Shown: in pieces, positions 3,493 through 56,543 of the stretch
Numbering within the stretch: position 1 is the stretch's first letter
How the letters are laid out: each line of letters opens with the position of its first letter
Assembly (NCBI RefSeq): GCF_024362525.1
Contig: NZ_CP101458.1
Span: forward strand, 1,550,001-1,614,000
Origin: Natrononativus amylolyticus
GTDB lineage: Archaea > Halobacteriota > Halobacteria > Halobacteriales > Natrialbaceae
DNA: 64,000 nt
Reading direction: 5' to 3'
Translations under genes and position numbers: made by a program
The notes under the pieces: generated by a model
Databases searched by the model: none
Seen by the model: only the letters and a program-made list of their open reading frames with translations
What the model was told of the DNA's origin: nothing

Positions 3493-3615
3493 AGGCGCGT
3501 CTACGGCCGGGCCGTGTAAAAGGTCAGTGTGGATGTCTCCCCACGACAGACGGCGCGTCGATTTTTGGAAGCTGTCCGCCTCGAAATATCGCGCCTTTTC
3601 GAGTTCGTGACGATC

Positions 3616-6342
<2,727 letters not shown>

Positions 6343-6351
6343 ATGTATGAA

Positions 6352-6437
6352 TCGAACCGGGGGGATTTGAACCCCTCGAGAACGCCCCGGAACGGGAATA
6401 TTGCCGGAAAGCGTGCGAGTTTGTGTCGGAGGTTCGG
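6352..6437 (-). other. tRNA-like fragment (B box, T-arm and acceptor) upstream of acnA
   Basis: On the minus strand the segment carries a good B box (GGTTCAAATCC) in a T-arm of four G-C pairs. It is followed by CGGTTCGA, which can pair over six bases with CGAACC about 70 nt upstream. No A box, D-arm or convincing anticodon arm is present, so it is not called a functional tRNA. It may be a decayed tRNA or integration scar, or simply a structured acnA leader. Confidence 0.3.
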
Positions 6438-6441
6438 GATG

Positions 6442-8009: not shown

Positions 8010-8079
8010 TGCCACCCGTTTCGCGTGCTCACCCTTAGGCGTTGAGTTCGAACCTCGACCCACGTTCGACGGCGCTGAA

Positions 8080-41709: not shown

Positions 41710-43200
41710 TTAGAAGAAGTCGCTGAGTCCCGCCTGGCCGTCGTCGGCGTCGCTGTCGTCGTCGGCCGCGTCGTCCCGATCCGACGTCGTTTCCTCGGAG
41801 TTCCCGCTCGAGGCCTCGAGGGTCTGCTGTGTCTCCGTTTCGTCGCCGGCCGCCGCGTCGCGCTCGCCGTCGTCGCTGTTCGACTCGACCGCCGACAGGA
41901 AGGCGTTCCCGGAGTGGGCGACCGCCCGCTCGGTCGTCAGCTCCACGGCCTCCTCGACGACCGACTGGACCTTGTTCGTGTCCGCGCCGCTGCCGGTGAC
42001 GAACGACACCTCCGTGGCGTCGAGGTCGTAGGCGGCGGCCATTCGAACGGTGAGGTCGCGGTTCGTGCAGTGGTGTGTCATCGCCGCGAGAAACGGGACG
42101 ATTTCCCGACGAGCCGTGGCGACGCTCGTCCCCTCGCGCTCGGCGATGCGTTCGGCGATCGAGTCGCGGGTGTCCCGGCTGCCCCGGGTTCGGCCGAGCT
42201 TCGACCAGTAGCTCGGCGGCCCGTACCGCGTCCAGCCGCCCTTGGGTTCGCGCCTCGAGGCCGCTACCCCCGCGGTCATGTTGTCGGTCGCGTACCGCCA
42301 GTAGGAGTAGTTCTGGCTCGCCCGCACGCGCCCGAGCCAGCGGTCGGCGTTGGCCATGAAGCCGTAGGCGTCGGCCAGTTCCGCGCCCGCGTAGTCCTTG
42401 GGGACGTTGTCCTCGATCCAGTTGAGCAGGTCGTCGGGCGTCTCGTCGACGTCGTAGGAGGCCCGCAGCGCCCCCTCGGCGTCCTTCTCCTTGATGAGGG
42501 CGTCCAGAAAGTCGAAGATCCCCTCGGTGGTGTCGCGCTCGCTCGTGACGACGTCGTCGACGGTGAGAACCGTCGTTTCCTCGGCGACGGCCTGGAGGTC
42601 GTTTACGGCGGAACGGAGGTCCCCCGACGTCGACTCCGCGATCTTCTCGAGGGCCGCGTCCTCGAACTCGATCCCCTCCTTGCGGCAGATGTCCCGCAGG
42701 ACGGGGACGATCGAGCGGGCGGAGACGTCGCGGAACTCGATCGTCTCGCAGGCGTTTCGCAGCGACTGGCTCATGTCGTAGAACTCGTTGGCCACGAGGA
42801 CGATCGGCTGATTCCCTTCCTTGACGAGGCTCGTGACGGCTCGAGAGCCGCCGTAATCGGCGTTGCCGTGGAAGTTGTCGGCCTCGTCCATGATCACCAG
42901 CCGACGGCCCGCGCTGCCGGCGGTGAGCGTGCCGCTCTTGGCCGCCTCGCCGGCGACCCGCTCGATGACGTCGGCCTGCCGGTCGTCGCTCGCGTTGAGC
43001 TCCATCACCGGCCACCCCATGTCGTTGGCCAGCGCGTGCGCGGCCGACGTTTTCCCGACGCCGGGGCTGCCGTGGACGATGGCCGCCTTCCGGTGGTCGT
43101 CCCAGGTTTCGGCCCACTCCCGTAGCTTGTCTCGAGCCTTGTTGTTCCCGCGTACCTCCGAGAGCGTCGTCGGGCGGTACGTCTCGGTCCAGTCTACCAT
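41710..43200 (-). CDS. rfcL: Replication factor C large subunit
   Basis: A 496-residue clamp loader subunit that loads PCNA. AAA+ motifs: Walker A HGSPGVGKTSAAH (43-55), Walker B VIMDEADNFHG, and an arginine-rich sensor region. A C-terminal collar domain follows. The last residues QAGLSDFF form a PCNA-interacting PIP box after an acidic linker. Codons 3-6 (GACTGGACCGAG) lie in the left attachment core of the integrated element, so the N-terminus M-V-D-W-T-E is a hybrid. The element also supplies a Shine-Dalgarno GGAGGT 9 nt upstream and a TATA-like CTTATATG about 27 nt upstream. Confidence 0.96.
   Translation of the reverse strand: MVDWTETYRPTTLSEVRGNNKARDKLREWAETWDDHRKAAIVHGSPGVGKTSAAHALANDMGWPVMELNASDDRQADVIERVAGEAAKSGTLTAGSAGRRLVIMDEADNFHGNADYGGSRAVTSLVKEGNQPIVLVANEFYDMSQSLRNACETIEFRDVSARSIVPVLRDICRKEGIEFEDAALEKIAESTSGDLRSAVNDLQAVAEETTVLTVDDVVTSERDTTEGIFDFLDALIKEKDAEGALRASYDVDETPDDLLNWIEDNVPKDYAGAELADAYGFMANADRWLGRVRASQNYSYWRYATDNMTAGVAASRREPKGGWTRYGPPSYWSKLGRTRGSRDTRDSIAERIAEREGTSVATARREIVPFLAAMTHHCTNRDLTVRMAAAYDLDATEVSFVTGSGADTNKVQSVVEEAVELTTERAVAHSGNAFLSAVESNSDDGERDAAAGDETETQQTLEASSGNSEETTSDRDDAADDDSDADDGQAGLSDFF
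43182..43194 (-). repeat. Left attachment core (attL) inside rfcL
   Basis: The 13-bp core GACTGGACCGAGA on the minus strand encodes codons D-W-T-E of rfcL. It is identical to 56460-56472. Partial similarity continues a few bases on both sides (for example GT-C after the core). Confidence 0.75.
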
Positions 43201-43205
43201 AGCAT

Positions 43206-43231
43206 CATTACCTCCTCATGATTCATATAAG
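43206..43231. promoter_or_regulatory. Divergent promoter region: rfcL Shine-Dalgarno, TATA and left inverted repeat
   Basis: Only 51 bp separate the starts of rfcL (minus) and the recombinase operon (plus). The AT-rich CATATAAG (43224-43231) can serve as TATA for both directions, 27 nt from the rfcL ATG and 21-28 nt from the ATG at 43252. GGAGGT (minus, 43215-43210) is a strong Shine-Dalgarno for rfcL. The segment 43206-43223 also matches the inverted copy at 56427-56444 and may be a recombinase arm site. Confidence 0.6.
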
Positions 43232-43251
43232 ATGACCGCGTGTACAGATCC

Positions 43252-43620
43252 ATGGCGTATGTCCAACTAGTGGTATCCGACGAACAAAAGGCTCGTTGGT
43301 CAGAATACGTAGACGAGCAGCCAGCCGTCGACTCCATCTCCGACCTCATCCGAACCGCCGTTGAAGGACACATGGCGCGTGACGATGACTCGGATCCATC
43401 AGACCTTAACACTCAGGTTATCGGTGGGGAACTCGACGAGATCGAAAGCCGACTGGCTACCATCGAAGACAAGGTAGATCTGCTGCGTCTCGAGAACGTC
43501 GAGGAAGACGAACTGGAAGGGATCGTCGAAAACATCGTTGAGCGATATGAAGTTGCCAACTCTGAGCACATCCTCAAAGAACTCGGCGTCGATACCGAGG
43601 ACGAGTGGCCCTACAAGTGA
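43252..43620 (+). CDS. Small ribbon-helix-helix-like protein preceding the recombinase
   Basis: A 122-residue acidic protein. Residues 1-45 (MAYVQLVVSDEQKARWSEYVDEQPAVDSISDLIRTAVEGHM) look like a ribbon-helix-helix DNA-binding domain. The rest contains a coiled-coil segment (GELDEIESRLATIEDKVDLLRLENVEEDELEGIVENIVERY). The ATG at 43252 is preferred to the in-frame GTG at 43240. The stop TGA shares its A with the recombinase ATG (TGATG), so the two are coupled. It is probably a recombination directionality or regulatory factor of the integrase, by position. Confidence 0.7.
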   Translation: MAYVQLVVSDEQKARWSEYVDEQPAVDSISDLIRTAVEGHMARDDDSDPSDLNTQVIGGELDEIESRLATIEDKVDLLRLENVEEDELEGIVENIVERYEVANSEHILKELGVDTEDEWPYK

Positions 43621-44579
43621 TGACGGGACACGATGATTTCGAGAATTGGCCGACACCCATTCAGCGCCATCTCATCCGCATTAAGGCACGGAAGTCCTCA
43701 CACACTCTGAAGAACCGAGTGGTCACCCTCCAGCAGTGGCGGGAGTACTGTGAGGAAACTGGCTACGATGTCTTAGAGGCAGACACCGACCTCATCGACG
43801 GTTGGTTAGATGAGATGAGAATCGAAGGGTATGCCGACAAATCGATTCTGAACAAAGCATACGACCTGTCTGCTGTATACAGGTATCTTAATGATCGCGA
43901 CGCCGTCGAGAGGAATCCCTTCGATCACGTGGAACTAAACTGGCTCTCGAACAAGCCCAAACTCGATACACACTCTGAGATACGGTATCTCGACATAGAC
44001 GAGTATGAAACGCTCATCGACGCCTGTCGCGATCTCCGTGATGAACTCATCTTACGACTCCTTTGGGCTACAGGAGTGCGCGTATCCGAGGCGAGTGACA
44101 TCCGCATTGATGATATTGACTTGGAAGAGCGCCAAATAGAAGTTCGAACCTCGAAACAACAACGCGGGGAAAATAAGAGTCGAACCGTCTACTATCGGTA
44201 TGATCTGGCTCGTGTCCTCCGAGAATGGTTGAAAGGTGGTCGACGGAACAAATATCTCTATGCGGGTGAGTCCGATTATCTCCTCCTCACGAAGCAATCG
44301 CCCCGAATGCCAGTCAGACGATTAGGTGAGATCGTCCGTGAGGTAGCTGCCCGGACTGATCTCCAGGAGGTCGTCTATACGGACGTAGAGGGGAACCCAC
44401 GGAATCGAATCACCCCACACACGTTCAGGCATTCCTACGCGGTCCATCGTACGAAGAACGGAATGCCCATCGTCTACCTCCAAGACTTGCTCGGCCACTC
44501 CGAGATCGATGTCACCCGCAAGTATCTCAAATTCCGATCCGACGATATCCGTGAGGCCGAAAAGAAATACGCCCCATAG
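43620..44579 (+). CDS. Tyrosine recombinase / integrase (XerC/D-like)
   Basis: A 319-residue tyrosine recombinase. The N-terminal SAM-like DNA-binding domain spans residues 10-110. The catalytic residues are all present: R154 (TGVRVSEASD), K179 (RTSKQQRG), H267-x-x-R270 (HTFRHSYAVH), H293 (LLGHSEIDVT) and nucleophile Y302 (KYLKF). It sits at the left end of the element, reading inward, beside attL. It should catalyse integration in the rfcL site and excision. No intact host tRNA target lies nearby. Confidence 0.95.
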   Translation: MTGHDDFENWPTPIQRHLIRIKARKSSHTLKNRVVTLQQWREYCEETGYDVLEADTDLIDGWLDEMRIEGYADKSILNKAYDLSAVYRYLNDRDAVERNPFDHVELNWLSNKPKLDTHSEIRYLDIDEYETLIDACRDLRDELILRLLWATGVRVSEASDIRIDDIDLEERQIEVRTSKQQRGENKSRTVYYRYDLARVLREWLKGGRRNKYLYAGESDYLLLTKQSPRMPVRRLGEIVREVAARTDLQEVVYTDVEGNPRNRITPHTFRHSYAVHRTKNGMPIVYLQDLLGHSEIDVTRKYLKFRSDDIREAEKKYAP

Positions 44580-44642
44580 TCGCAACGGTCCTCTATTTGA
44601 CAGTTATGGTCCCTGAAGTCCTCAAATGACAATATAATTACC

Positions 44643-44664
44643 TGTATTAACCATTAATACGCAT
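44643..44664 (-). repeat. Operator-like imperfect palindrome, copy A
   Basis: On the minus strand TGCGTATTAATG-GTTAATAC matches the perfect palindrome at 49079-49103 at all but one position of its central 20 bases. It lies between the recombinase and the minus-strand operon ending at 44837. The copies suggest a DNA-binding site for an element-coded protein. Confidence 0.55.
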
Positions 44665-44692
44665 TGATTGTGGCAACATTAAATCTTCATGC

Positions 44693-44732
44693 TCTATACT
44701 ACGAAAGGGGTAGGGGTTACGGAATACGCATA
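44693..44732 (+). repeat. 40-bp direct repeat, left copy (GGGGTAGGGGTTACG core)
   Basis: TCTATAC, seven variable bases, GGGGTAGGGGTTACG, then A-A-x-A-C-G-C-A-T-A. It matches 54688-54727 in 34 of 40 positions, same strand, 10 kb apart. Shorter GGGGTAGGGG cores also occur at 50208-50217 (plus) and 48460-48469 (minus). Confidence 0.7.
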
Positions 44733-44836
44733 CGGTAGAGCGCCTCAAAGTACTGAATTCAGCTGTCTGAATACGGTATCCTGATAATTTAGAAGGGGCT
44801 TCCCGTTCGGGGTCGTGGGTGGGTTCACTCTCGACT

Positions 44837-45619
44837 TTATTTCTCAAGCTTATCTTCATCACCTATGCCGTTGGCAATCTGTACTTTTCGCCAGACATTA
44901 AACAAAATCTCGGATATCCATGTACCTTCTTCCGACTTCTCTTCTATTTCCTCTTCTGAGATGTCGATCTCGATTGAGTGAGCACTGTCATTGGCATCGT
45001 ACCGGAAGTCGTTAAGTGACTTAATGAAATCCTCATCCAGAGTTAACGAGTAGTGCCGAAAATCCTGTAACTGCTCATCGAAGTTCTCAATAAGGACGGA
45101 GAACGGCAGATACTGTGCTCGATCTGGATTGAAAAACATACGGATTTCTCTATTCCCGTAGTGTCCTCGAAGGATATCGATTAACAGCGATTCAAACAGC
45201 TTACGAGTCAGCACCATCGTTGCGTTATATGCCCTTATCTGGTATGTCTTGTTTATTTCATCGATCAATTGATTATAAAACCGTTCATCAGTATAGTCCA
45301 CGGTCAAAAAGTCATCATCGCGTTGTTTTTCAGGGAACTCGGGGAGGTCCACCAGATCGGAGTAGTAATTCATTCCCTCGTGCGTCAGTAGATACCCATC
45401 TCCGTTCTTCTTCACATACCCATCGTTTGCTAACTGACTTGGATACGAGGAGACGTTATTCCGATTTACGTCGACGCGTGAATTATTCAGCGTCTCTTTT
45501 ATTCTTTGAACTAAGACCGGTCCTTCGTCTTTCAATTCATCATAGAAGTATATGGTTAATCCGACGGTGTGCTTGTCTGTATCCACAGATGAATGCTTAA
45601 TCACCCGATCGAAATTCAT
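44837..45619 (-). CDS. Winged-helix plus HEPN/DUF4145-like protein
   Basis: A 260-residue protein. Residues 15-85 look like a winged helix (VQRIKETLNNSRVDVNRNNVSSYPSQLANDGYVKKNGDGYLLTHEG). The C-terminal half is helical, with YNATMVLTRKLFESLLIDILRGHYG and the FRYDANDSAHSIE motif. The R-x7-H with N-D-x-A-H matches DUF4145-type HEPN domains, which are often RNA-cutting or RNA-binding in defence systems. It is the second gene of an operon, overlapping 45616-46281 by 4 nt. Antiphage function is inferred only. Confidence 0.65.
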   Translation of the reverse strand: MNFDRVIKHSSVDTDKHTVGLTIYFYDELKDEGPVLVQRIKETLNNSRVDVNRNNVSSYPSQLANDGYVKKNGDGYLLTHEGMNYYSDLVDLPEFPEKQRDDDFLTVDYTDERFYNQLIDEINKTYQIRAYNATMVLTRKLFESLLIDILRGHYGNREIRMFFNPDRAQYLPFSVLIENFDEQLQDFRHYSLTLDEDFIKSLNDFRYDANDSAHSIEIDISEEEIEEKSEEGTWISEILFNVWRKVQIANGIGDEDKLEK

Positions 45620-46281
45620 ATCTTGATCTCAGACGCAAGGTCGGTAAAGAGCTGATACGCTTCGTCTTTTCCAGGTGGCCGAATTTCGGTAGTAGCGCTT
45701 GGTCCTTTACCCCGTCTGTTCAGATAGATATCCTCTTCTTCTACGCGACCCACATTTCTCCAGTTGTCTTCGTTCAACCCGGAATCAGCTAATGCCTGCT
45801 TCAGTTCTGATGTTTTCATTTTCTTTATGCCGTGGAAGTCATCCAAGACAGTGAGGAGAAGAATAGAAGCGTTCAGCAGTCGGTGCTGACCATTATCCCC
45901 AAGCAGGTCATTGTCTCCGATATAGCGAGGATGCTCTTTGATTTCACCATCTTCTACCCTTCCCGCTTTGACTAACCGATAGAGTTTCTGTTCAGATAGG
46001 TCGTTAAGGGAGGAGACACGATTAGTAAACCCGTCTAATGCCTCCTGCTCATGGAAATCTTGCTCAACTCCCTTCTGATCGTCTGCTTCTTCTTTTCCAA
46101 CATCCGTCTCCTGCTGATCAACTTCCTCTAGATTTTCATCAGTATTTGGAAGCGGATCCGCTGGCGGATAGTCTTCTGTGATGTTCTTGAGGGCTTTGAG
46201 AACTTCTTCGTAGTCGTCTTCTTCATTCGCTTTGATTTCAGCTTCTATCGGCCCGTGCTGAAAGGTAATGTTGATATCCAT
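45616..46281 (-). CDS. Hypothetical protein, operon partner of the HEPN-like protein
   Basis: A 221-residue protein. An N-terminal part (MDINITFQHGPIEAEIKANEEDDYEEVLKALKNI) may be a small alpha-beta domain. A central acidic Gln/Glu/Asp linker follows, then a C-terminal winged-helix-like region (MKTSELKQALADSGLNEDNWRNVGRVEEEDIYLNRRGKGP). It is the first gene of the pair, and its stop overlaps the HEPN-like start (ATGA). An AT-rich promoter lies upstream (TTATATTCTTATAAATC). I do not recognise the family. Confidence 0.6.
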   Translation of the reverse strand: MDINITFQHGPIEAEIKANEEDDYEEVLKALKNITEDYPPADPLPNTDENLEEVDQQETDVGKEEADDQKGVEQDFHEQEALDGFTNRVSSLNDLSEQKLYRLVKAGRVEDGEIKEHPRYIGDNDLLGDNGQHRLLNASILLLTVLDDFHGIKKMKTSELKQALADSGLNEDNWRNVGRVEEEDIYLNRRGKGPSATTEIRPPGKDEAYQLFTDLASEIKI

Positions 46282-46367
46282 ATCACTTCTAAAACTGAAT
46301 TATATTCTTATAAATCATTCTCATCAATTGATCACTCACTATTTGACTATGGTTCATCGGTGGCAAT

Positions 46368-46388
46368 CCCATTATCAGGAATAATGGG
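46368..46388 (-). terminator. Hairpin after the 46416-47288 membrane gene
   Basis: CCCATTAT (46368-46375) pairs perfectly with ATAATGGG (46381-46388) around a five-base loop. It lies downstream of the minus-strand gene ending at 46416 and upstream of the next operon. No clear T-tract follows, so terminator or operator roles are both possible. Confidence 0.4.
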
Positions 46389-46415
46389 AAGTATGGGCTG
46401 AGCAGTTTGAAATAG

Positions 46416-47288
46416 TCATAGTACTGACGGCAACTCATAGCCCAACACACTGGCTAACAGAATACCTGCTGCGATCGTCCAGGCGAACTCGCACTCTAAT
46501 GACCACCTGAGTTCTGAGAGTGACTGAGCTGCCCCATAATTGATATAGATATATCGGGTTAAATCCCGCAGCAGCAAGAGCGATAATACCACCAACATTG
46601 CTATCAGCACTCCATCGAAGAACCATGTGAGGACGAGCCAAACAGGCAGACTCACAAATAGCAATAACACCAGTGTTCCGGTCCCGAAAAGCAAGGTCTT
46701 TCGGTCACTGTTTGGTGGTATCGTTGCACCATTATCCATCGCTGCTTCGATCTGATCCCTACCGAAGTCAGCAGCCTTACGAAGAACCAGTCCAATCACA
46801 TTATCATCAGTTTCTTCATGGATAATGCTCGACCAAGTCTTCGCGTATTCCCTCAGCACCAGAAGATCGAGAACAACAAAGGATAGAGAAAGGACGAAAG
46901 CGAGGCTGACAAAGAAGGTTATCGGAGACAGGTATCCCGTCTGAGCGCTGGCGTGAAGACTGATGCCTGCGAGTCCTCCAATGAGAGCAAGTTGTAGTAA
47001 CTTCGAACTCAATCGGAGTGATTTCCTGAGAAGACCCATATTCGGATCTTCGGCAGTCCCCGCCATAGCTCGAAGACACATTGTGAGAAAAACCACTCCA
47101 AGAGCGATCTGAAAGACCACCTCGTACTCCCAACCCGTTGAGAACTCGAAAACGATGAGCGAGAGAACACCGAGAATGATTGATTCAATGAGTATCGCAT
47201 CACCCCCAACAACGGACTCGTTATAGCGTTCCACCACTGTATACAGGGATGGTATATCTTCTGAGTAATGAATTTTCTCACAGCTCAC
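46416..47288 (-). CDS. Multi-helix membrane protein, unknown
   Basis: A 290-residue protein with about eight hydrophobic segments, for example IESIILGVLSLIVFEFSTGWEYEVVFQIALGVVFLTM, LLQLALIGGLAGISLHAS, ITFFVSLAFVLSLSFVVLDLLVLREYA, LLFGTGTLVLLLFVSLPVWLVLTWFF and MLVVLSLLLLRDLTRYIYI. A soluble loop of about 45 residues sits in the middle. No transporter motif is recognised. It is separated from the HEPN operon by a hairpin and from the TS-like gene by divergent promoters. Confidence 0.65.
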   Translation of the reverse strand: MSCEKIHYSEDIPSLYTVVERYNESVVGGDAILIESIILGVLSLIVFEFSTGWEYEVVFQIALGVVFLTMCLRAMAGTAEDPNMGLLRKSLRLSSKLLQLALIGGLAGISLHASAQTGYLSPITFFVSLAFVLSLSFVVLDLLVLREYAKTWSSIIHEETDDNVIGLVLRKAADFGRDQIEAAMDNGATIPPNSDRKTLLFGTGTLVLLLFVSLPVWLVLTWFFDGVLIAMLVVLSLLLLRDLTRYIYINYGAAQSLSELRWSLECEFAWTIAAGILLASVLGYELPSVL

Positions 47289-47355
47289 CCCTGTACGATC
47301 ACGGGATCACCCAATCACTCGTAACTCTTAAATTGTCAGATAAACTATATTAATT

Positions 47356-48084
47356 ATGGTACCGCCCGAGACCAGTCCGTTTGTTGTTGCACCTGATATT
47401 GGGACTGCCTATACGGCGCTGCTCGAGTCTCGAGTCCACGGGCTCTTCCCTCACGACTATCACGTCGTCCATATCTCAGAGCCTGTCTCTTCGATCGACT
47501 ACGACGAGTTTTCCATAGAGCGATCTCAATGGCTCGAGGTAGTCAATACAGGAGAAACGCTGGGACGCTTCGAGAGCTACGAGTTCACCGACGGTACTAC
47601 CGGGCGGTACTGGGTACAGGACCGTATCGAGGAGCTCTTCGCTGGCCTGTACGCTACCAGACTCACGGCCCCCCGTAACCAACTCGATATGATACGGGGT
47701 CGCCTCAAGCAAGGCAATCATGGACAGACAACGAATGCACTCCTCGGACAGCCATATCGACTTACTCCCGATCTCGAGAAGGCGACTGAAGGGAAACCAC
47801 TCGCTCCTAACATTCCGTGTCTGGTCTTGCTACAATTCAAACCTCAGCGAGACAAGCTCCACCTCTATACGACGTTCCGAAGCCAATACATCGATACGAA
47901 GTGCTATGGGAATCTCATCAGTCTCGCTCTGTTACTCGCAGACATGTGCCACCAAACAGGCTATGAACCAGGCTATCTGGTAGAGACAGCTCATAATTCG
48001 ATCTTCCGGAACGTTGGTGATGCGCGAGGGTTGTCTTCTGTTCTCTCTGATGATCCACCAAAAGGAACTCACTCTATTTCGTAA
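47356..48084 (+). CDS. Divergent thymidylate-synthase-fold protein
   Basis: A 242-residue protein whose residues 105-220 align in order with the ThyA catalytic core. LAPNIPCLVLLQFKPQ with C155 matches the LAPCH active-site cysteine. DKLHLYTTFRSQYID matches GKLxCxLYQRSxD. NLISLALLLADMCHQTGYEPG matches NIASYALLxxMxAQxxxxxxG. The residue after C155 is Leu, not His, and the N-terminal dUMP/folate segment is short. This is not the host enzyme; a full thyA exists at 6972. The fold also includes nucleotide hydroxymethylases of viruses, so base modification or nucleotide-pool control is possible. Confidence 0.65.
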   Translation: MVPPETSPFVVAPDIGTAYTALLESRVHGLFPHDYHVVHISEPVSSIDYDEFSIERSQWLEVVNTGETLGRFESYEFTDGTTGRYWVQDRIEELFAGLYATRLTAPRNQLDMIRGRLKQGNHGQTTNALLGQPYRLTPDLEKATEGKPLAPNIPCLVLLQFKPQRDKLHLYTTFRSQYIDTKCYGNLISLALLLADMCHQTGYEPGYLVETAHNSIFRNVGDARGLSSVLSDDPPKGTHSIS

Positions 48085-48514
48085 GGTTGGTTTCCGGTCT
48101 TCTGCAGAGGGCGATCTTGATCCGTATAGTATAGCGTATTTTATATCCGACTATAAACTAGAGCAATAATATGCTAAGGCTGTGAGAATGACTACTTCTT
48201 CTGTTATAGATGTGTACAGCTGCCCTAATCTGCCTGCACTATCTCTTGAAAATATCTTGTGAATTCTTAGTGGTGCGGGAGATACAGAGTAATTCTTGTC
48301 TCATTTGTTCTGTATCAACTAAGAGTTGATAATTACTACGAGGTCTTCCGCTGTTCTATTCTCCTGAAGGTTACATCTTCAGAGAGGATAAGATTATATC
48401 CGGGATTAAATAACGCGGAGAAACCATACGGGAAGGGTGGGAGTGGTGAACGATACTCGCCCCTACCCCACTCTAGTAAGGTAACCGCTTGCGAGTTCTC
48501 TCAGTCTACTATTG

Positions 48515-48826
48515 CTAGAGGTGGCTCCGGGTATTTCCAATCTCAAACGAATCGGGTGATCCGATTCTCGACTGGATAGAGTGCCTACCTTCATTGGTCC
48601 CGGTGTAACCAGTCGGACCTCCGGTAGCCAGGGTTGGCCGTTTGCACCCACTGCGAGTGCCATCAGACGCGACCTGCGTAAGCTCCCGCGCTGGCATTTC
48701 AGCCCAACGGAGACTTTTCATTTCTCCATTTTTCTGATCACGCGGAAGGTTCTCAGACCGATTAAGCTCCTGCGACGTATGGAACTTACCACATAGCCGG
48801 TTCGACGGACGATACACCTGTTTCAT
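48515..48826 (-). CDS. Doubtful hypothetical protein (103 aa)
   Basis: A 103-residue frame from MKQVYRPSNRLCGKFHTSQELNR, ending GNTRSHL. It is basic, Gly/Ser/Thr-rich (TRSGCKRPTLATGGPTGYTGTNEG) and has no recognisable domain. Codon third positions are mixed. It could be genuine element coding or a chance frame in structured DNA. Listed only so the region is not called empty. Confidence 0.25.
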   Translation of the reverse strand: MKQVYRPSNRLCGKFHTSQELNRSENLPRDQKNGEMKSLRWAEMPARELTQVASDGTRSGCKRPTLATGGPTGYTGTNEGRHSIQSRIGSPDSFEIGNTRSHL

Positions 48827-49078
48827 TTTTCGTTTTGGAGAAGGAGGGACCCCTCTCATTTGGATGCGATAAAGGCCCTCGTGGAGTTACCCCACCGACG
48901 CGGTCATTTCCACGTGGTGGAGCTCCAAATGATGGGTCTTTTATCGCAGCGTAGGATTCCTACGCCCTATTTACAAGTACTATTTACTTGCACTTAAGTA
49001 TTTTGGTCTATTTGCAATTTCGTAATGTTATCACGCCTTTCAGTAGTATAATTCTTTGCACCCATGTGAGTTTCTCAG

Positions 49079-49103
49079 GTGCGTATTAATGATTAATACG
49101 CAC
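49079..49103. repeat. Perfect 12-bp-arm palindrome, copy B
   Basis: GTGCGTATTAAT-G-ATTAATACGCAC: two perfect 12-base arms around one base. A near copy lies at 44643-44664. It is about 220 bp upstream of the cassette starting at 49325. Likely a protein-binding site (operator or replication/partition site). Confidence 0.7.
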
Positions 49104-49324
49104 CCCCAGGAGGAACAAAGTCGCATCCCGAAAAGCGAACCGGGATTTCAGGGACCGGTGATTCCCTGCCTGTTCTTGAACAGGAAATGATGCGACCACC
49201 ACCGATTGAACACGGGAGATCGGGAAACGCGTCCCGCAGTATCAAATAAGCGTGGTATTAAAATAAGTCTTACTATAGTAAGGAATAAAGTGTAAAACAT
49301 AGTAGCTATGTACGTAGTTCGAAA

Positions 49325-49441
49325 ATGACTGTAAAACAACTCAATGTGTCGTTCGACGCGGAAACCCACGCAGCACTCTTAACTGTGAAAGGTGACCGGA
49401 CCTGGAGACAGGCGATCGTCGATGAGTTCAGGGTCAACTGA
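49325..49441 (+). CDS. Very small protein (38 aa), first of the membrane cassette
   Basis: A 38-residue frame, MTVKQLNVSFDAETHAALLT through IVDEFRVN. The strand-helix pattern (QLNVSFDAETHAALL) resembles the N-terminal part of a ribbon-helix-helix protein. Its TGA shares its A with the ATG of the next gene (TGATG), which supports a real, coupled gene. An AT-rich promoter-like ACATAGTAGC/TATAGTAAGG region lies upstream. Function may be regulatory. Confidence 0.5.
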   Translation: MTVKQLNVSFDAETHAALLTVKGDRTWRQAIVDEFRVN

Positions 49442-50139
49442 TGTCCAATCACTCCGTTTGGAACGAGAAGGTGAAGCAAGACCCTGATATCTGCCTGAAC
49501 TGCTTCACCTGGCTCAAAGAGTCATATACACTTCGTGGAGTGATGACGAAACTCGGTGATCCTGACTCAGCGAAGACGTACACTCGAAATTCAAACGATC
49601 CCACGAACAGTGTAAAGGAGCGAGCTATTCGACGCCAACGACGTCGTATTCGTGGGCCTACTGTTGAGTTCGATGGTGATGGGCGAAAGGAGGATGAACA
49701 CCAAGCAGCTCAGTATAACACGTATCCGGTCTGTGAGTGCGGCGTAGATCACCATGAAGTGGTCTACAAAGAAGAACTCACTCACGAGGAATTGAAGGGA
49801 GCCGTTGTTGAGATCGGAAAGAAACTCACGAATGATCGTCGTGTGAACCTCGATCGGAAGCAGCTGGTCGTTGATTACTTGAGACTCCGTGATTCGACTC
49901 GCCCGGAAGATCAGTTCGCCTCTTCTCGTCATCTCCTGAAGCATGTCGTTGATTCGAATGCGGAGATAGTGGATTACGAACCTCAAGAAACGGAGTTCGT
50001 CTATACTGATCGGGATGAGAAGAACAAACCGAATCTCACCCCCGAGGTCGATCTTGGCGAGGTAGACAACTCCCATCTCCCCGATCTCGATCAAGACCTC
50101 ATCGAAGTCACGGGACGGTCCAGTGGGGCTACTGAATAA
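49441..50139 (+). CDS. Cysteine-containing hypothetical protein
   Basis: A 232-residue charged protein. C-x-x-C-type cysteines near the N-terminus (DICLNCF) and later YPVCECGVDHHEVV could form a zinc site. The middle is basic (ERAIRRQRRRIRGP), and the second half acidic with helices (HEELKGAVVEIGKKLTNDRRVNLDRKQLVVDYLRLRD). This suggests nucleic-acid binding. No family is recognised. It is coupled to the 38-residue ORF and followed by three small membrane proteins. Confidence 0.65.
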   Translation: MSNHSVWNEKVKQDPDICLNCFTWLKESYTLRGVMTKLGDPDSAKTYTRNSNDPTNSVKERAIRRQRRRIRGPTVEFDGDGRKEDEHQAAQYNTYPVCECGVDHHEVVYKEELTHEELKGAVVEIGKKLTNDRRVNLDRKQLVVDYLRLRDSTRPEDQFASSRHLLKHVVDSNAEIVDYEPQETEFVYTDRDEKNKPNLTPEVDLGEVDNSHLPDLDQDLIEVTGRSSGATE

Positions 50140-50257
50140 TTAGATAGCTACCTCGAGCCCCCTGAATTCGTAGCCGTCGGCTTCCCTCGCGTAGGCGGTT
50201 TGCGTAGGGGGTAGGGGTTTCGCGGTATAGATAGTGAATATTTATGATTTCAATACA

Positions 50258-50605
50258 ATGAAGAGCAAAATCACAGACGAAGCGAGTGGCACTGGCAAGA
50301 ATATCAAAGATACAGTCCGCGAGTTCGAGTTAGTCGATCTAATTCCACCGAGTATCGTGAGTATCCTCGTTTGGGCGCGGGATACAATCCCTCGAGGACT
50401 TGGATTCGCAGATCGAACGAGACATTTCACTGGTGTCTTCGGGCTCACGGTCGTGATGGTGTTATCATCCGGATTCCTGTTGACGGTCGCAGCAGCGGTC
50501 TATTTCCTGATCGCAATCTGGTTTCCACTATTACGATTCATTCCTGCATTTGAGAGACGATGGCCCTTCGCCGAATCAAACTGGCCGCTGTGGGAGCTGG
50601 AGTGA
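50258..50605 (+). CDS. Small membrane protein of the cassette (115 aa)
   Basis: A 115-residue protein from MKSKITDEASGTGKNIKDTVREFE. It has a hydrophobic segment HFTGVFGLTVVMVLSSGFLLTVAAAVYFLIAIWFPLLRF, probably two helices, and a soluble N-terminus. An in-frame GTG lies 24 bases upstream. The G-rich motif GGGGTAGGGGTT (50208-50219) lies about 40 bp before it. Unknown function; the run of small membrane proteins recalls virus membrane-protein operons of pleolipovirus-like elements, without recognisable homology. Confidence 0.6.
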   Translation: MKSKITDEASGTGKNIKDTVREFELVDLIPPSIVSILVWARDTIPRGLGFADRTRHFTGVFGLTVVMVLSSGFLLTVAAAVYFLIAIWFPLLRFIPAFERRWPFAESNWPLWELE

Positions 50606-50611
50606 TCACTG

Positions 50612-50824
50612 ATGATCGAACTCAAAGCGCCACATTCGCTTCAGGGCTGGTTTGTCTGGATCACAGCATTTACTCTTGGGCTGGTCGCATTCTTCTCATC
50701 AGCAGCGATTGGAAGCCCCATATTTGTCATCACAGTCGGGCTGATCGTGAGTGTTGCCTATGTCATCTATCTCCTACTATTCAAGACCCACAGTACACTC
50801 AAGCACGGTCGCTCGAGGGGGTGA
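50612..50824 (+). CDS. Small two-helix membrane protein (70 aa)
   Basis: A 70-residue protein with two helices, WFVWITAFTLGLVAFFSSAAI and PIFVITVGLIVSVAYVIYLLLF, and a basic C-terminal tail (KHGRSRG). It starts 6 bp after the preceding stop, so the genes form an operon. Confidence 0.6.
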   Translation: MIELKAPHSLQGWFVWITAFTLGLVAFFSSAAIGSPIFVITVGLIVSVAYVIYLLLFKTHSTLKHGRSRG

Positions 50825-50830
50825 TCATAG

Positions 50831-51091
50831 ATGCTACTGATTGGCGGGATCGTTCTGAGTATCGTGGTACTCGTCTACGTCTTCCCGGATGAAACTCGAA
50901 CGTGGTGGACTCGAGTCTATACAACGAAGGAGGTCATGTTTGGAGCAGCCGGACTCATCCTCGCGTATTTCTTAATTCAGACGGGGAATCTATGGTTTGT
51001 GCTGCTTGGGGTGATCGGGATCGCCTATGGAGTACTGTGGATAGTGTTCGAACGACCTGATGAGAAGGTCAAACACACGTTGAGAGGTTGA
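50831..51091 (+). CDS. Small membrane protein (86 aa)
   Basis: An 86-residue protein with three hydrophobic stretches: MLLIGGIVLSIVVLVYVF, VMFGAAGLILAYFLIQ and LWFVLLGVIGIAYGVLWIVF. A charged loop (PDETRTWWTRVYTTKE) links the first two, and the tail is basic. Six bases separate it from the upstream gene. Unknown function. Confidence 0.6.
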   Translation: MLLIGGIVLSIVVLVYVFPDETRTWWTRVYTTKEVMFGAAGLILAYFLIQTGNLWFVLLGVIGIAYGVLWIVFERPDEKVKHTLRG

Positions 51092-51094
51092 GCA

Positions 51095-51331
51095 ATGGGT
51101 GTCTGCTATCGAGTACTCCATTACGGGGTCAGTACGGGGAATCGATTTACGAAAACCGCACTACTTCGCCGTGGTCTGTTAGCTGGATTACGACCAAACG
51201 GGATAAAATACCGGGCTACGCTCGCTATTCTATATTCGCGCGCGTATAGGGTAATTGGCCGAAATAGTTCGGGCTCAATCGGCGCTCTCGAAAAATTAAC
51301 GGAAATGATGAACATGCTCATCAGGGCTTGA
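51095..51331 (+). CDS. Small basic protein at the end of the cassette (78 aa)
   Basis: A 78-residue basic protein, MGVCYRVLHYGVSTGNRFTK through MMNMLIRA, starting 3 bp after the previous stop. The centre is Arg/Leu-rich with no clear membrane helix. Operon position supports it; coding character is weaker than for its neighbours. Unknown function. Confidence 0.45.
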   Translation: MGVCYRVLHYGVSTGNRFTKTALLRRGLLAGLRPNGIKYRATLAILYSRAYRVIGRNSSGSIGALEKLTEMMNMLIRA

Positions 51332-51667
51332 TCCCCCGGAATAGACGGTTTGGTGGGTTGTGAGTTACCGTAGGAAGGCTCCCCATCCTACGGTTCGGGC
51401 ATGAGAAAAATCGCGACCGGGTTTCGGTGGTGTCAGCACTCCTAAAGCGCGTACCGAGTGATTACGGGCCTATTTCGATACTCCTGACGGCATTGATACC
51501 GATCTGGGACCGGAAGAGATTATGGGAAGAATGCTCGACCACTACGAGTTCCGATTAGATGACGCGCTCGAAAGGGCCAGGGCGGTTAATTCCAACTGGG
51601 ACTGGCGAATTATACTTTCACTCTGGTTGCGGCAGTTTAAATATTCCCTTCTGCCAACTGGTTTAGT
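51332..51667. other. Gap between membrane cassette and exonuclease
   Basis: 336 bases. It contains the hairpin at 51367-51394 and, near the right end, the promoter TTTAAATATTCC (51637-51648), about 20-30 nt before the exonuclease ATG. An overlapping ORF (51522-51857) is judged spurious. Confidence 0.55.
51367..51394 (+). terminator. Hairpin after the membrane-protein cassette
   Basis: ACCGTAGGA (51367-51375) pairs perfectly with TCCTACGGT (51386-51394) across a 10-base loop. It lies 36 bp after the last gene of the cassette, where a transcript end is expected. A T-tract is not obvious. Confidence 0.45.
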
Positions 51668-52336
51668 ATGCGATACAATCGCGACGGTAATGGCTATGAC
51701 AGAATCGCAACGTTCGACATCGAAACAACCCACTGGAAAGCCACAGAGGGTGAGACTGTTTCAGTGGGGATTGCCGTCCATGACTGTGGCGCTCCAGGAA
51801 GTGACATACAGTACAAACCGTTTCATCGCAACAGCACAGGTGACGAAGCCGAACTGATCGCTCGAGCGCTCGAATACGTCGACGACTGTGGAGTAGATGC
51901 TCTCGTCTCGTACAATGGCAGGGATTTCGACATGGACTTTCTCCACACACGGCAGTACCTTCTCGGAGAAGATAAGATCGAGCCGGAGATCGACACCCCA
52001 GCAACCCACATTGACCTCTTCGAAGACCGGAAGAAGAAGTGCAACCGGACGGGCGAAAAATGGCCGAAGCTCGAAGAGTGTCTTGCAACCTACAAGTTCG
52101 CTGAACCAGAAACGCTTTGGAACGGGCGTCCAGTTACGAACAAGCGGTTTGGCGAAGAACTTGGTCCTGCATATCTCGCTGCCCTGGAGGACAACGATCG
52201 CGACCAAGCCGACTCGCTCCGAGAAGTGATCGACCACTATCTCGTTACCGACCTCGAGGCAAATCTCGCGATCTACTACGCGGATACTGGACAGGAGTTC
52301 AAACCACACTATCTCGGGACTCGCGCCGTGTTCTGA
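51668..52336 (+). CDS. DEDDy-type 3'-5' exonuclease (RNase H fold)
   Basis: A 222-residue stand-alone exonuclease of the DnaQ/PolB-exo superfamily. Exo I is FDIETTHW (D and E), Exo II is YNGRDFDMDFL (D), and Exo III is HYLVTDLEA, a Y-x3-D pattern that marks the DEDDy branch. HIDLFEDRKKK lies between Exo II and III. Single-domain forms of this kind occur in haloarchaeal mobile elements. It would digest single-stranded DNA ends, serving element replication or defence. A TATA-like TTTAAATATT lies about 25 nt upstream. Confidence 0.85.
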   Translation: MRYNRDGNGYDRIATFDIETTHWKATEGETVSVGIAVHDCGAPGSDIQYKPFHRNSTGDEAELIARALEYVDDCGVDALVSYNGRDFDMDFLHTRQYLLGEDKIEPEIDTPATHIDLFEDRKKKCNRTGEKWPKLEECLATYKFAEPETLWNGRPVTNKRFGEELGPAYLAALEDNDRDQADSLREVIDHYLVTDLEANLAIYYADTGQEFKPHYLGTRAVF

Positions 52337-52405
52337 GACCTACGTGACTATTCCACCCGCCGACGATCACCAATAATAGCCAGATCTCGAACCAGGGTGG
52401 TTTTA

Positions 52406-52933
52406 TCAGAACAGCTTTCGCAGCGCCTCTAATGCATGTGAAAGATCTGGCGGGTTGAATTCAAATCGCCTTTCTACTCGAGAATTACCGTCCTCAGTTT
52501 CAATTTCTTTATACTCATATTTAATTCCAGACCCAAGATATAATACAATGAATACCAATTCAATTGGTCCAATAATTTCAAGTAAAAATGGACTCTCCTT
52601 GCGGATTCTCTTAACTTTGACCGCTCCATCACGCTGATTAGATAGATATCTGCCTTTGGTACGAGTAATTCTTTTGAGATCACCTTGACTGGCTAACTTT
52701 CCAATAATTCTTTCCCGAGCCTCTTTATCGTTCACGACCTCTTCTCGGCGCTCCTTGCTGTACGCGAATTCGTGTCTTATCTCGGCTAGTGTTTCTGATC
52801 CAGATAGACCTTCTGCGATCCCGTTTATATAATATAGTAATGCAGTTATCTCATTTAGAGATCTTTGTTCTGGTTCACGAGACACATGCAGTTCACCGAC
52901 TGCAAGACCACTATCGTAGGTGCCATTATCCAT
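52406..52933 (-). CDS. Hypothetical protein (175 aa)
   Basis: A 175-residue protein. The N-terminal half is helical (NEITALLYYINGIAEGLSGSETLAEIRHEFAYSKERREEVVNDKEARERIIGKLA). A middle basic segment (DLKRITRTKGRYLSNQRDGAVKVKRIRKE) precedes a hydrophobic stretch (FLLEIIGPIELVFIVLYLGSGI) that may be a membrane or buried helix. A charged C-terminal domain ends LSHALEALRKLF. Codons are AT-rich. No family is recognised; a winged helix may lie in the middle. Confidence 0.6.
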   Translation of the reverse strand: MDNGTYDSGLAVGELHVSREPEQRSLNEITALLYYINGIAEGLSGSETLAEIRHEFAYSKERREEVVNDKEARERIIGKLASQGDLKRITRTKGRYLSNQRDGAVKVKRIRKESPFLLEIIGPIELVFIVLYLGSGIKYEYKEIETEDGNSRVERRFEFNPPDLSHALEALRKLF

Positions 52934-53075
52934 AATAATTGCTGAGATTATATCCTATTAACTCTGTTTCTAGATGTTTGTGTGAAAGATCTAATGCTTG
53001 TGTCACGGTCTAAATATTGAAATTGACTTAGCGATTATGCCTAATACGTCTTTGTGCGCTTTCAAATTCGGATTA

Positions 53076-53924
53076 TTACGCTTCAGACGCACAGATATTT
53101 GTATTTCGAGCCTTGGCCTTTTCTACGAGTTCCTTGTTGAACTGTCGCCCATCTTCACCTTCATGGGCTCGCCGATGACAATTCGGACACAGAGCAATGA
53201 CGTTATCTGGATGGTCTGCCCCCTCGTCTCCAAGCATCTTCAAATGGTGGACCTCAAGAAATGGTTTCCCGTCTTTCGATTTGAACGGCGCTGCTTCTTC
53301 ACAACCTTGACAAACCCCATCAGCAGAACGCCTCGCAAATTTTTTGACTACCTCAGATCGGTTGTACTGAGAACTTGCTCCTCCAGAAGACCCAGTAGAA
53401 TCACTTGATCCGGAGTTACCACCGTTCGTTGATTGTAACGGCGCAGCTACGCAAGCATCCGCATAGAGCTCTTCTAATGGCTTCGTCTCAGGGTCGCCCT
53501 GGACTTTGACGGTTCGGCCTCCTACTGGGACAAGATCGAACAGAATTGCATCCCTGAAATTGTCCTTCTTATCTTGGAGAGGAACCCACTCGTGATCCTC
53601 ATACTGGTATTCCCCCCGGTATCTGACCATGTAACTCTCATCGGTCTTCTCAAAAACATGGATCTCTTTACCCATGTCCTCGTGATCGCGGATTGCTCGA
53701 TTCACGAAGCGCCAGTCCATGTCGCCTTCAGCGCCTTGTCCTGAGTATTGGAAGGTACCATCAGCCAGAAATTCGTCAACATATCCAAAGCTCCTCCCTC
53801 GATCACTCGTGATGATGAACACGTACGGGTTGTCTTTTGAGGTGATGATTCCACCTTGCCAAGTACCACCCTGAGCGGCCAGTTCATCGCGGCGGTGATA
53901 AGAGTCACCAAACTGAAGGTCCAT
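53076..53924 (-). CDS. HNH endonuclease with SRA-like N-terminal domain (McrA-like)
   Basis: A 282-residue protein. The N-terminal 140 residues (FGDSYHRRDELAAQGGTWQGGII, FGYVDEFLADGTFQYSGQGAEGDMDWRFVNRAIRDHEDMGKEIHVF, YMVRYRGEYQYEDHEW) match the modified-base-binding head found in ScoMcrA-like HNH enzymes. A Ser/Gly-rich linker follows. The HNH domain has CQGC, VHHLKMLGDEGADHPDNVIALCPNCHRRAHEG, giving the H-N-H set and four zinc cysteines. By family it should cut methylated or otherwise modified DNA (type IV restriction). It is carried as element cargo. Confidence 0.88.
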   Translation of the reverse strand: MDLQFGDSYHRRDELAAQGGTWQGGIITSKDNPYVFIITSDRGRSFGYVDEFLADGTFQYSGQGAEGDMDWRFVNRAIRDHEDMGKEIHVFEKTDESYMVRYRGEYQYEDHEWVPLQDKKDNFRDAILFDLVPVGGRTVKVQGDPETKPLEELYADACVAAPLQSTNGGNSGSSDSTGSSGGASSQYNRSEVVKKFARRSADGVCQGCEEAAPFKSKDGKPFLEVHHLKMLGDEGADHPDNVIALCPNCHRRAHEGEDGRQFNKELVEKAKARNTNICASEA

Positions 53925-54048
53925 AGTGATTGTACTTTTGCCAGACGTCTTGAAGCCTATGTTAGGTGGATACCATTCAAGAAGTAGAGGATTCCGTCAC
54001 TGAAAATCTAGTCAAAAATACTATTGTATGTGGGCGAAAAGGTACAGT

Positions 54049-54561
54049 ATGGTAAAAAGGGACGCGATATTCTCGGCCGATAATGAACACAGATACCGCC
54101 TTTTCAGAAGTCTTGACGGTGATTTTCGAGACAAAACCCTAACATTTGTGCTATTGAATCCGTCAACAGCGGACGATGAAATAGATGATGATGCAACCAA
54201 AAGGTGTATTGAAATTGCTAAATACCACGACTTCAAACACCTTGAAATTGTCAATCTATTCTCGCTAATTGAACCGACATCGGAGGATTTAGAGGATGCT
54301 AAGAATCCGGTTAGACAAGAAAATGACAAACATATCATTGAGTCCTGTGAGGAGGCAGATAAGATAATTTGTGGATGGGGTAATATTGGAGACCATATGA
54401 ATAGAGCGGCAGAAGTTTACGAAAAGATATCACACCATGATCTTGAGTGTCTGAGAGTTAACCAAACTGGAGAACCCACATACGTAAATCCAAATGGACC
54501 ACTACAACATCAATTGAGCTACGATACTCGGCCATATGAGAGAGCAATTGAGGTCTATTAA
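54049..54561 (+). CDS. DUF1643 family protein
   Basis: A 170-residue protein matching DUF1643: the start VKRDAIFSADNEHRYRLFRSL, the central FVLLNPSTADDEIDDDATKRCIEIAKYHDFKHLEIVNLFSL, and IICGWGNIGDHM. The family occurs widely near restriction and mobile genes and has no proven reaction. A conserved N-P-S-T-A-D segment suggests nucleotide binding or catalysis. ATG 54049 is chosen because a TATA-like AAATACTA lies about 26 nt upstream; an ATG at 54028 is in frame. The gene is markedly AT-rich. Confidence 0.85.
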   Translation: MVKRDAIFSADNEHRYRLFRSLDGDFRDKTLTFVLLNPSTADDEIDDDATKRCIEIAKYHDFKHLEIVNLFSLIEPTSEDLEDAKNPVRQENDKHIIESCEEADKIICGWGNIGDHMNRAAEVYEKISHHDLECLRVNQTGEPTYVNPNGPLQHQLSYDTRPYERAIEVY

Positions 54562-54880
54562 TTCAGGCTAATAGGCCACATTTGGTATTGTAGTAGACAG
54601 GGCTCTGAATGAGTAATTTGTTTGCGGCAGTACGTGCTACGAAAGTGTATCCGCCATTAGTAAATATTCGACATTAAATTTCACCCGTCTATACCCGGAA
54701 GGGGGTAGGGGTTACGAAAAACGCATAGTTTGGAGCCCTTCTCACGGTTGTCTGTAGGTGTTTCGAGGGTACTTCGTCGTATCTTAGTATGTGGTTCAAC
54801 CCCACTTCCAGACCAGCCACATCCAACTCACTAAACATTCATGAAGTCGTATTTATAGCAAGAGAGACAAATATATTGGC
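54562..54880. other. Gap with the right copy of the 40-bp repeat
   Basis: 319 bases without a gene. It includes the 40-bp repeat (54688-54727) and, near its end, the protease promoter (a TATA-like TATTTATAGC about 54849-54858, 22-31 nt before the start). Confidence 0.6.
54688..54727 (+). repeat. 40-bp direct repeat, right copy
   Basis: Matches 44693-44732 in 34 of 40 positions, including GGGGTAGGGGTTACG and ACGCATA, on the same strand. It lies in the gap before the protease gene. Confidence 0.7.
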
Positions 54881-55726
54881 ATGCCGGCTCAATACGGATA
54901 TCAGATTGATTTAGCATTTCTCGTTACTACACCGCTGCATGTCGCAGGCCCGGATAGTGGCGGAACTGGGTTCTTCTTCCGCATTGATACAAATACATAC
55001 ATTGTTACCGCAGGGCATGTACTTGCAGACGAAGACCGAGAAAGCTATGGAGAGGAATTAAGATCGGAGATTCATCAACAACCACCCGAAGTATCCTATT
55101 ATCTGCGTGATACTGACGACGTAACAAATACCACTAGATACTCCGTTGATCTCTCGGAAGAACAGCGGACTTGGGGTTTTGATCCGAATGGAGCGGACGT
55201 TGCAGTCATACAGATTGATGAGGAGCTGATTACCCTTCCGGATTACTTTAGTAGAGACGAAGATGATGAAGAACCCCGGTTTTCCTCGTTTTCGCTCACA
55301 GAACGTCAGTTCATTGGAAATAACCAACTGACGACTGATAGAGTGTACAGCCTCGGGTATCCAGGGAGACTGTACGATTCACAAACAAAGTTCCCGATCA
55401 GAAGAAATTCGTTACTCGCCACTCCGATACATGTCGATTTCGAGGGGAAGCCTCGATTCCTTACAGACGCACGCATGGACCCTGGGACTAGTGGAAGCCC
55501 AATCTTAGTCGAGCCATCTCAAGTCCAATATCCATGGGGTGCACATTTAACTCAAACTCACGAAACACCTATTCTACTCGGCGTTCATGCCGGGAACTTC
55601 TATTATAACGAAGGCAACTCTGAATCTGAGGAAGATTGTTTGAGAGCGACACAATATTTCGACCTCAACGAGACTTGGCGTCCCGAGGCGATTATTCGTG
55701 CGATACAGGAGGCTGTTCCCAGCTAG
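54881..55726 (+). CDS. Trypsin-like serine protease
   Basis: A 281-residue S1/S7-fold protease without signal peptide. The catalytic triad is visible: H46 in YIVTAGHVLADE, D106 in GADVAVIQI and S204 in MDPGTSGSPILVEP. G-Y-P-G-R-L (160-164) supports the second barrel. The family includes stand-alone intracellular proteases in defence loci, in which cleavage of a partner protein triggers a response. No such partner is proved here; the neighbouring 55809 gene encodes a helix-turn-helix-like membrane protein. Confidence 0.85.
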   Translation: MPAQYGYQIDLAFLVTTPLHVAGPDSGGTGFFFRIDTNTYIVTAGHVLADEDRESYGEELRSEIHQQPPEVSYYLRDTDDVTNTTRYSVDLSEEQRTWGFDPNGADVAVIQIDEELITLPDYFSRDEDDEEPRFSSFSLTERQFIGNNQLTTDRVYSLGYPGRLYDSQTKFPIRRNSLLATPIHVDFEGKPRFLTDARMDPGTSGSPILVEPSQVQYPWGAHLTQTHETPILLGVHAGNFYYNEGNSESEEDCLRATQYFDLNETWRPEAIIRAIQEAVPS

Positions 55727-55808
55727 ATTGAATGGCAGAATACTGATCATATTTTGGAAGAGAGTCGGTATATTCATAAACTCAATAACAAAAATAGATC
55801 AATAAGGT

Positions 55809-56198
55809 ATGCTTGATAATATTGAAAAACCTTATTGGCACGATGATTTGAAGAGTATCTATGAGAATGGGAGCGAAAAGGAATGTAATGGTACAATCGA
55901 GAACGAGGACATCTTAAAAGAGAACAAGTACATTAAAGACGCGATTGTCGATGGAGAAAAAGATCTTGTGATCACTTCTGAGGGACATAGAGCCTATGAG
56001 AAATTCCGTGATCAACAACTCGATTATGCAAAGGTCAATGTAGCACAGTCAGTAGCATTGTTGGTTGGGATTATTGGAGCATTAGCTTCGTTGATAATCG
56101 CGTTCCCTGGTGGGGCAATGTGGCTCGCTGGGGCTGCAGCCCTTATTTTGTTTGTTACTGGAATTATAATTCAAATAGAACTAGGAAGGGTAGAATAG
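55809..56198 (+). CDS. Winged-helix-like protein with two membrane helices
   Basis: A 129-residue protein. Residues 1-70 (KPYWHDDLKSIYENGSEKECNGTIENEDILKENKYIKDAIVDGEKDLVITSEGHRAYEKFRDQQ) suggest a degenerate winged helix. Two membrane helices follow (VAQSVALLVGIIGALASLIIAF and MWLAGAAALILFVTGIIIQIEL). It is the rightmost gene of the element and lies 82 bp after the protease gene. Membrane-bound effector is an inference. Confidence 0.6.
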   Translation: MLDNIEKPYWHDDLKSIYENGSEKECNGTIENEDILKENKYIKDAIVDGEKDLVITSEGHRAYEKFRDQQLDYAKVNVAQSVALLVGIIGALASLIIAFPGGAMWLAGAAALILFVTGIIIQIELGRVE

Positions 56199-56543
56199 CT
56201 CTAAGAACGACCATACTGGTCAGACGCATCTCGCCAGGGTTCAACACCTAGACCAATAGTCCTCGTAGAGGTCTGAGTTTATACAAAGCTTGGCTAAATT
56301 AACGAATGTTCCGAATATCTCCGTGTACCCCTCATGAGTAGTAATCCTGACGGAATTAATTCAACACATTACTTGCGATTTCGTCCTCTGGCGAGTCGTC
56401 ACAATAATATAGGAACTAACTGAGTAAATCATGATAAGGTCATGTTGAATTAGGGCACTTCTCGGTCCAGTCGGTCATTGTCCGATGTTGGAAGAAGCGC
56501 GTTCAGTGGTTCCGGAGCACCGCCCGTTCCCGTTCGCCGACGG
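56199..56543. other. Right end of the element and junction to the chromosome
   Basis: No gene is seen. The segment holds the right 18-bp inverted sequence (56427-56444), attR (56460-56472) and the displaced rfcL start codon (56478-56476, minus strand). The switch from AT-rich to GC-rich sequence is at about 56460-56480. Confidence 0.7.
56460..56478 (-). pseudogene. attR with displaced original rfcL start (M-T-D-W-T-E)
   Basis: On the minus strand, ATGACCGACTGGACCGAG (56478-56461) encodes M-T-D-W-T-E, which fits haloarchaeal RfcL N-termini. Reading then runs into element DNA and stops after about 12 codons (KCPNST, then stop). The 13-bp core is shared with 43182-43194. This is best explained as the 5' stub of the pre-integration rfcL, with its own promoter on the right. 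Confidence 0.75.

Follow-up and report, generated by a model that had tools for sequence, protein, structure and literature searches.

The open reading frame at 47356-48084 (+) of the window, i.e. of the whole 64,000-nucleotide stretch of DNA analysed, codes for a protein of 242 amino acids, and its segment of residues ~98-214 is homologous at the level of the fold to thymidylate synthase (TS) enzymes, a relationship which by sequence comparison is not a matter of chance. The reading to which we give most weight, if tentatively, is that of a TS-superfamily enzyme that would use C155 to act on a uracil-type nucleotide and would operate independently of methylene-folate, in a conflict setting on a mobile element. 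The initial annotation had proposed a divergent ThyA core and a role in base modification or nucleotide control; it is partly supported, its observations being mostly right and its superfamily claim standing, while the functional claim had to be narrowed. The gene and the host ThyA used for comparison are:

47356-48084, + strand: TS-superfamily protein, 242 aa, with a TS core at ~98-214; C155, Y99, N186 and R175-S176 kept; Y178 at the Asp169 position
6972-8063, - strand: canonical host ThyA, 363 aa (PF00303 4.5e-88)

Relationship to thymidylate synthases

The best named profile of the 242-aa protein was TIGR03283 with 4.2e-8, at 33 bits against a curated cut-off of 174.55. PF00303, the profile search proposed in the initial annotation, matched with 1.1e-4 and 21.9 bits, under its cut-off of 24.3, and PHROG 160 (thymidylate synthase) matched with 5e-5. 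Comparison of the TS-like family profile (19 relatives) with 36 ThyA by hhalign yielded a probability of 98.5 and an E of 2.2e-15, as against probabilities of 0.0-0.4 in negative controls with the same alignment reversed or column-shuffled. Thus the TS relationship of residues ~98-214 is not due to chance, and these profile matches and controls bear out the divergent ThyA core. The N-terminal ~95 residues gave no alignment to ThyA. No PADLOC model matched the window protein or any of the four relatives tested. The dN/dS of the window gene against its close relatives of 69-71% identity was 0.12-0.13, which indicates that the gene is kept by purifying selection.

The structure prediction and fold search that had been suggested gave a result in line with the profiles, at low model confidence. 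An AlphaFold2 model of the window protein built from a four-row alignment was poor (pLDDT 45, pTM 0.40); a single-sequence AF2 run on the TS-like protein of one operon-type locus (L065, see below) gave a pLDDT of 37. For the low-confidence core of residues 100-215 most of the 50 structural rows listed were TS-type enzymes with Z of 6.2-7.5, all ties or near-ties by the tool's rough criterion and under its safe level. The best row, T4 dCMP hydroxymethylase with a Z of 7.5, belonged to this tied group. The first rows of a Foldseek search with the low-confidence model were likewise TS (E 2e-3). The model would thus agree with the sequence result; it does not separate the TS subfamilies.

Residues at the active-site positions

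Residues were compared in a family alignment of 19 TS-like sequences from haloarchaea, proteobacteria, actinobacteria and cyanobacteria, and E. coli ThyA numbering is used for the counterparts. C155, which had been singled out as the cysteine of a catalytic P-C site, aligned with the catalytic Cys146 and was invariant (19/19). Loss of this cysteine from all homologues, named at the outset as an observation that would speak against the assignment, was not seen. Y99 at the Tyr94 position and the pair G185-N186, in which N186 corresponds to the base-reading Asn177 and G185 to the residue preceding it, were invariant in all 19 as well. The kept Asn177 position would fit uracil better than cytosine.

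The R-S...D segment of the initial annotation was confirmed in its first half only. R175-S176 correspond to Arg166-Ser167, with Arg in 14 of the 19 sequences at the position of R175. A sub-branch of the bacterial relatives has lost Arg166, for which reason the TS-like family may lack one common activity. D180 as the TS aspartate was rejected, because it is two positions out of register: the TS motif R-S-x-D reads R-S-Q-Y in the window protein, with Y178 at the Asp169 position. The Asp is lost in 18 of the 19 TS-like sequences and kept in one, while all 36 ThyA examined keep it. Asp169 of ThyA contacts folate, and dCMP hydroxymethylases keep an Asp at this folate-site position. An entry in the structural match list, PDB 1bjg, is by its title a mutant at the Asp169 site that fails to promote opening of the cofactor ring. 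Given the loss of the Asp169 position a methylene-folate reaction is unlikely.

Two further positions differ from E. coli ThyA. Arg126-Arg127, which bind phosphate in ThyA, are represented by T125-T126 in a weakly aligned loop. L156 stands where His147 would follow the cysteine, as had been noted initially, and the residue following Cys is hydrophobic in all TS-like relatives. Yet methanogen-type ThyA is likewise without this His, and 26 of the 36 ThyA examined have Met there, so that the replacement of His alone says little. The loss of Asp169 together with Thr-Thr in place of Arg126/127 led us to exclude a folate ThyA, and with less certainty a hydroxymethylase, as the identity of the window protein.

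A folate TS was therefore rejected on its residues, the Asp169 position being lost. More generally, a divergent ordinary thymidylate synthase, or island cargo in decay, is a very improbable reading and the last in our ranking. A TS family as the best named profile would suit the former, and a broken copy in Haloterrigena turkmenica and a split gene in Rhizobium ruizarguesonis would suit the latter. However, Asp169 is missing, the scores are far under the curated cut-offs (33 vs 174.55 bits) and the genome already has a canonical ThyA, while the low dN/dS argues against a decay of the window copy.

Relatives, operon-type loci and the low-GC island

Two close relatives with 69-71% identity occur in two other genera of the same family, one of them in Natribaculum breve; a relative with 39% identity is located on a plasmid of Natrinema thermotolerans, and two with 33% in other haloarchaea. 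In the order as a whole a TS-like member turned up in six of 293 genomes; the Haloterrigena turkmenica copy is broken, and the remaining matches were ThyA of canonical size. The six haloarchaeal proteins formed one clade with full support. A tree that included ThyA gave support of 0.35 and lower for the TS-like group as a single clade. When the haloarchaeal six were compared by hhalign with 13 other relatives, with no shared rows, the result was 99.2% and 2e-19 over 200 columns; judged by this comparison, the window protein belongs to the same family as the operon-type TS-like proteins.

The operon-type relatives are found on plasmids of Sulfitobacter, Rhizobium, sphingomonads, Burkholderia, Streptomyces, Allocoleopsis, Nostoc and Haloarcula marina. 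Scans of viral-collection contigs detected just two, via short patterns, and one of these contigs (L065) bears terminase and portal genes. A search of 50,697 phage records yielded no clear relative, and with two viral-collection contigs only, a viral origin was rejected. The recurrent operon thus spans plasmids of several phyla and two viral-collection contigs.

The loci that were read had been picked to span the match list and not at random, so that we claim no frequency for their features. The recurrent gene order (L054-L065, L016, L071) was an ACP-like gene, an HTH gene, an ImmA/IrrE protease gene, often a C1 peptidase gene, and the TS-like gene. Adjoining the TS-like gene was HMUDK_hel, or UDG, or in L065 DUF1643, usually also with MazG/MazG_C; none of the operon-type loci read showed both HMUDK_hel and UDG. 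In L065 genes for DUF1643, ACP-like, HTH, ImmA, TS-like and MazG-MazG_C proteins stand in a row (3539-7379). The ACP-like protein is small with a conserved Ser and is annotated as acyl carrier protein in three loci; that of L064 matched PF00550 with 5e-4, narrowly under the cut-off. Some loci add holo-ACP synthase or PPTase, dCTP deaminase or dTMP kinase. The ImmA protein of one operon-type locus, preceded by the HTH gene, matched the PADLOC model for CapP with 1.1e-13, whereas no PADLOC model was matched by the TS-like, HMUDK_hel, MazG, UDG or C1 proteins of these loci.

Among the haloarchaeal relatives, that of Natrinema has a TFB-like gene and then an HMUDK_hel gene after its TS-like gene. 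The HTH gene downstream in another carrier locus, L050, was considered as a counterpart of the TFB-like gene and rejected, since there is no similarity. HMUDK_hel was found also without TS-like genes, e.g. on a Parabacteroides plasmid with TIR-domain and radical SAM genes (L069, 4796-9438). Directly upstream of the TS-like gene of Natribaculum breve we observed a gene with SRA and nuclease-like matches (L018, 8985-9929). In another haloarchaeon a 1499-aa ORF (L051, 11229-15728) lies close to the TS-like gene; it has a P-loop-like segment and possibly codes for a STAND-type protein.

The window gene itself lies in an island of low GC with the following features:

43200-56400: low-GC island of ~13 kb, GC 42-52% vs 65-72% in the flanks
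43605-44579, + strand: XerA-like tyrosine recombinase that marks the edge of the island; its counterpart in L050 is 83% identical and likewise adjoins rfcL
50234-50605, + strand: small membrane-like protein, whose best matches within the order (45% and 38%) are encoded in the two close carriers, at a distance of 1.3-2.4 kb from the TS-like gene
51668-52336: RNase-H-like (DEDD-type) exonuclease (PF13482 6e-8)
53076-53924, - strand: SRA-HNH modification-dependent nuclease-like (McrA-like) protein (HNH 1.7e-9; SAD_SRA 1.8e-4; PADLOC mREase_IV 5e-19)
54028-54561, + strand: DUF1643 protein (PF07799 7e-33)
54881-55726: trypsin-like protease (PADLOC candidate PDC-S45 4e-25)

The McrA-like nuclease that had been placed in the same element is thus present: the SRA-HNH gene shares the island with the TS-like gene, and a functional tie between the two is putative. 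Nothing recognisable as degraded partner genes was found at 48085-49440, downstream of the TS-like gene. A search of the whole genome yielded neither PF00550 (ACP) nor PF01648 (PPTase), both of which were detected in control genomes, and neither PF18722 nor PF18723 (HMUDK_hel, MazG_C), both of which were detected in positive-control plasmids. The outcome was the same in four other carrier genomes. Because ACP, PPTase, HMUDK_hel and MazG_C were not found in the genome, we regard the window protein as a solo member. DUF1643 as a stand-in of UDG fold had no support, with an hhalign probability of 0.1 from only two DUF1643 sequences; what ties it to the operon is therefore L065, together with its occurrence in the island of the window.

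These neighbourhoods support by association the part of the initial annotation that concerned nucleotide metabolism or base modification: relatives lie near HMUDK_hel, UDG, MazG/MazG_C, dCTP-deaminase and dTMP-kinase genes, while none of HMUDK_hel, MazG_C, ACP and PPTase was found in the genome of the window protein itself. The more specific proposal, a hydroxymethylase of dUMP or dCMP as a source of modified bases for DNA, is disfavoured. The TS-type core, T4 dCMP hydroxymethylase as the best among tied structural rows, HMUDK_hel beside relatives and the SRA-HNH nuclease in the same island are all consistent with it. Still, we judge it unlikely: the Asp169 position, kept in 36/36 ThyA, is lost, the kept Asn177 speaks against cytosine and HMUDK_hel is missing from the genome.

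The main rival to an enzyme is a catalytically idle nucleotide sensor, in which the TS pocket would bind a pyrimidine nucleotide, e.g. one raised in virus replication, and signal to other proteins. The losses at the Asp169 position, His147 and Arg126/127 would suit such a sensor, as would a solo gene without partner enzymes in its genome. Yet the cysteine is needed for chemistry and not for plain binding, and its invariance (19/19), shared by the Tyr94 position, makes a mere sensor doubtful. Thus we rank a non-folate enzyme first, followed by the sensor, the hydroxymethylase, and finally an ordinary TS or decay.

Proposed function and comparison with known systems

In the preferred reading of a non-folate enzyme C155 would attack C6 of a uracil-type nucleotide and activate C5, as the invariant residues suggest, and a donor other than methylene-folate would complete the reaction. 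The product, a modified or depleted pyrimidine nucleotide, would act in a conflict of element, host and virus, a role suggested by the mobile location and the neighbours of relatives. In the operon-type relatives the acyl carrier protein may carry the donor. The solo archaeal form would have to use another donor or work alone, because no ACP was found in its genome.

The residue table, the profiles with their controls, the dN/dS and the core of the low-confidence model all point to a TS-superfamily enzyme. The nucleotide-handling neighbours, the haloarchaeal HMUDK_hel link, the patchy distribution (6/293) and, by analogy, the anti-phage TS systems of one published report (PMC13092281) suggest the conflict role. 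The change of Arg126/127 to Thr-Thr, the search of the genome that found no operon partner, the loss of Arg166 in a sub-branch and the pLDDT of 45 stand against this explanation. A bolder version, which we consider quite improbable, is a putative branch in which C5 of a uracil nucleotide is alkylated or acylated, the group coming from a dedicated ACP and not from folate. This would be the step of synthesis in a mobile system of bacteria and archaea for nucleotide-based immunity or hypermodification, with the window protein as a streamlined solo descendant.

TS chemistry at C5 of pyrimidines underlies normal dTMP synthesis and much of the viral modification of pyrimidine bases. A widespread branch with the Cys/Tyr/Asn core, without the folate Asp, and beside ACP-like genes, an HTH-protease pair and nucleotide-processing genes points to an uncharacterised pathway of nucleotide modification or depletion. 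The larger point of interest is thus the operon family to which the solo gene is related, and the substrate question could be put directly to the solo form from haloarchaea, which is small and separable.

With methanogen-type ThyA (TIGR03283, PF00303) the window protein shares the order Tyr94 - DQL segment - Pro-Cys146 - Arg166-Ser167 - Asn177. It differs by the loss of Asp169 and Arg126/127, by an N-terminal half that is not alignable and by scores under the curated cut-offs. T4 dCMP hydroxymethylase and the CMP hydroxymethylase MilA superpose on the low-confidence core 100-215, with Z of 7.5 for the former and 7.1 for the latter, level with ThyA chains; in contrast to these enzymes the window protein has lost the Asp169 position, and its Asn177 position is still Asn.

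The CapH-CapP pair of CBASS (HTH and ImmA/IrrE protease) resembles the operon-type loci in that the ImmA protein of one of them matches CapP and follows an HTH gene; however, the operon-type pair precedes a TS-like gene and not a cyclase. No such pair was present among the window genes scanned. A literature search of open-licence papers found none that describes an ACP-ImmA-TS operon. The DefensePredictor paper (PMC13092281), which cites Burroughs et al. 2015 for these domains, reports the validation of E. coli anti-phage systems with thymidylate-synthase and 5-hydroxymethyluracil-kinase domains and predicts MazG, MazG-C and aGPT-Pplase systems; acyl carrier proteins and ImmA go unmentioned in its text. 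The domain types of its systems (TS, 5-hmdU kinase, MazG-C, UDG) are those that adjoin the operon-type relatives, and it is by domain type that we liken the two.
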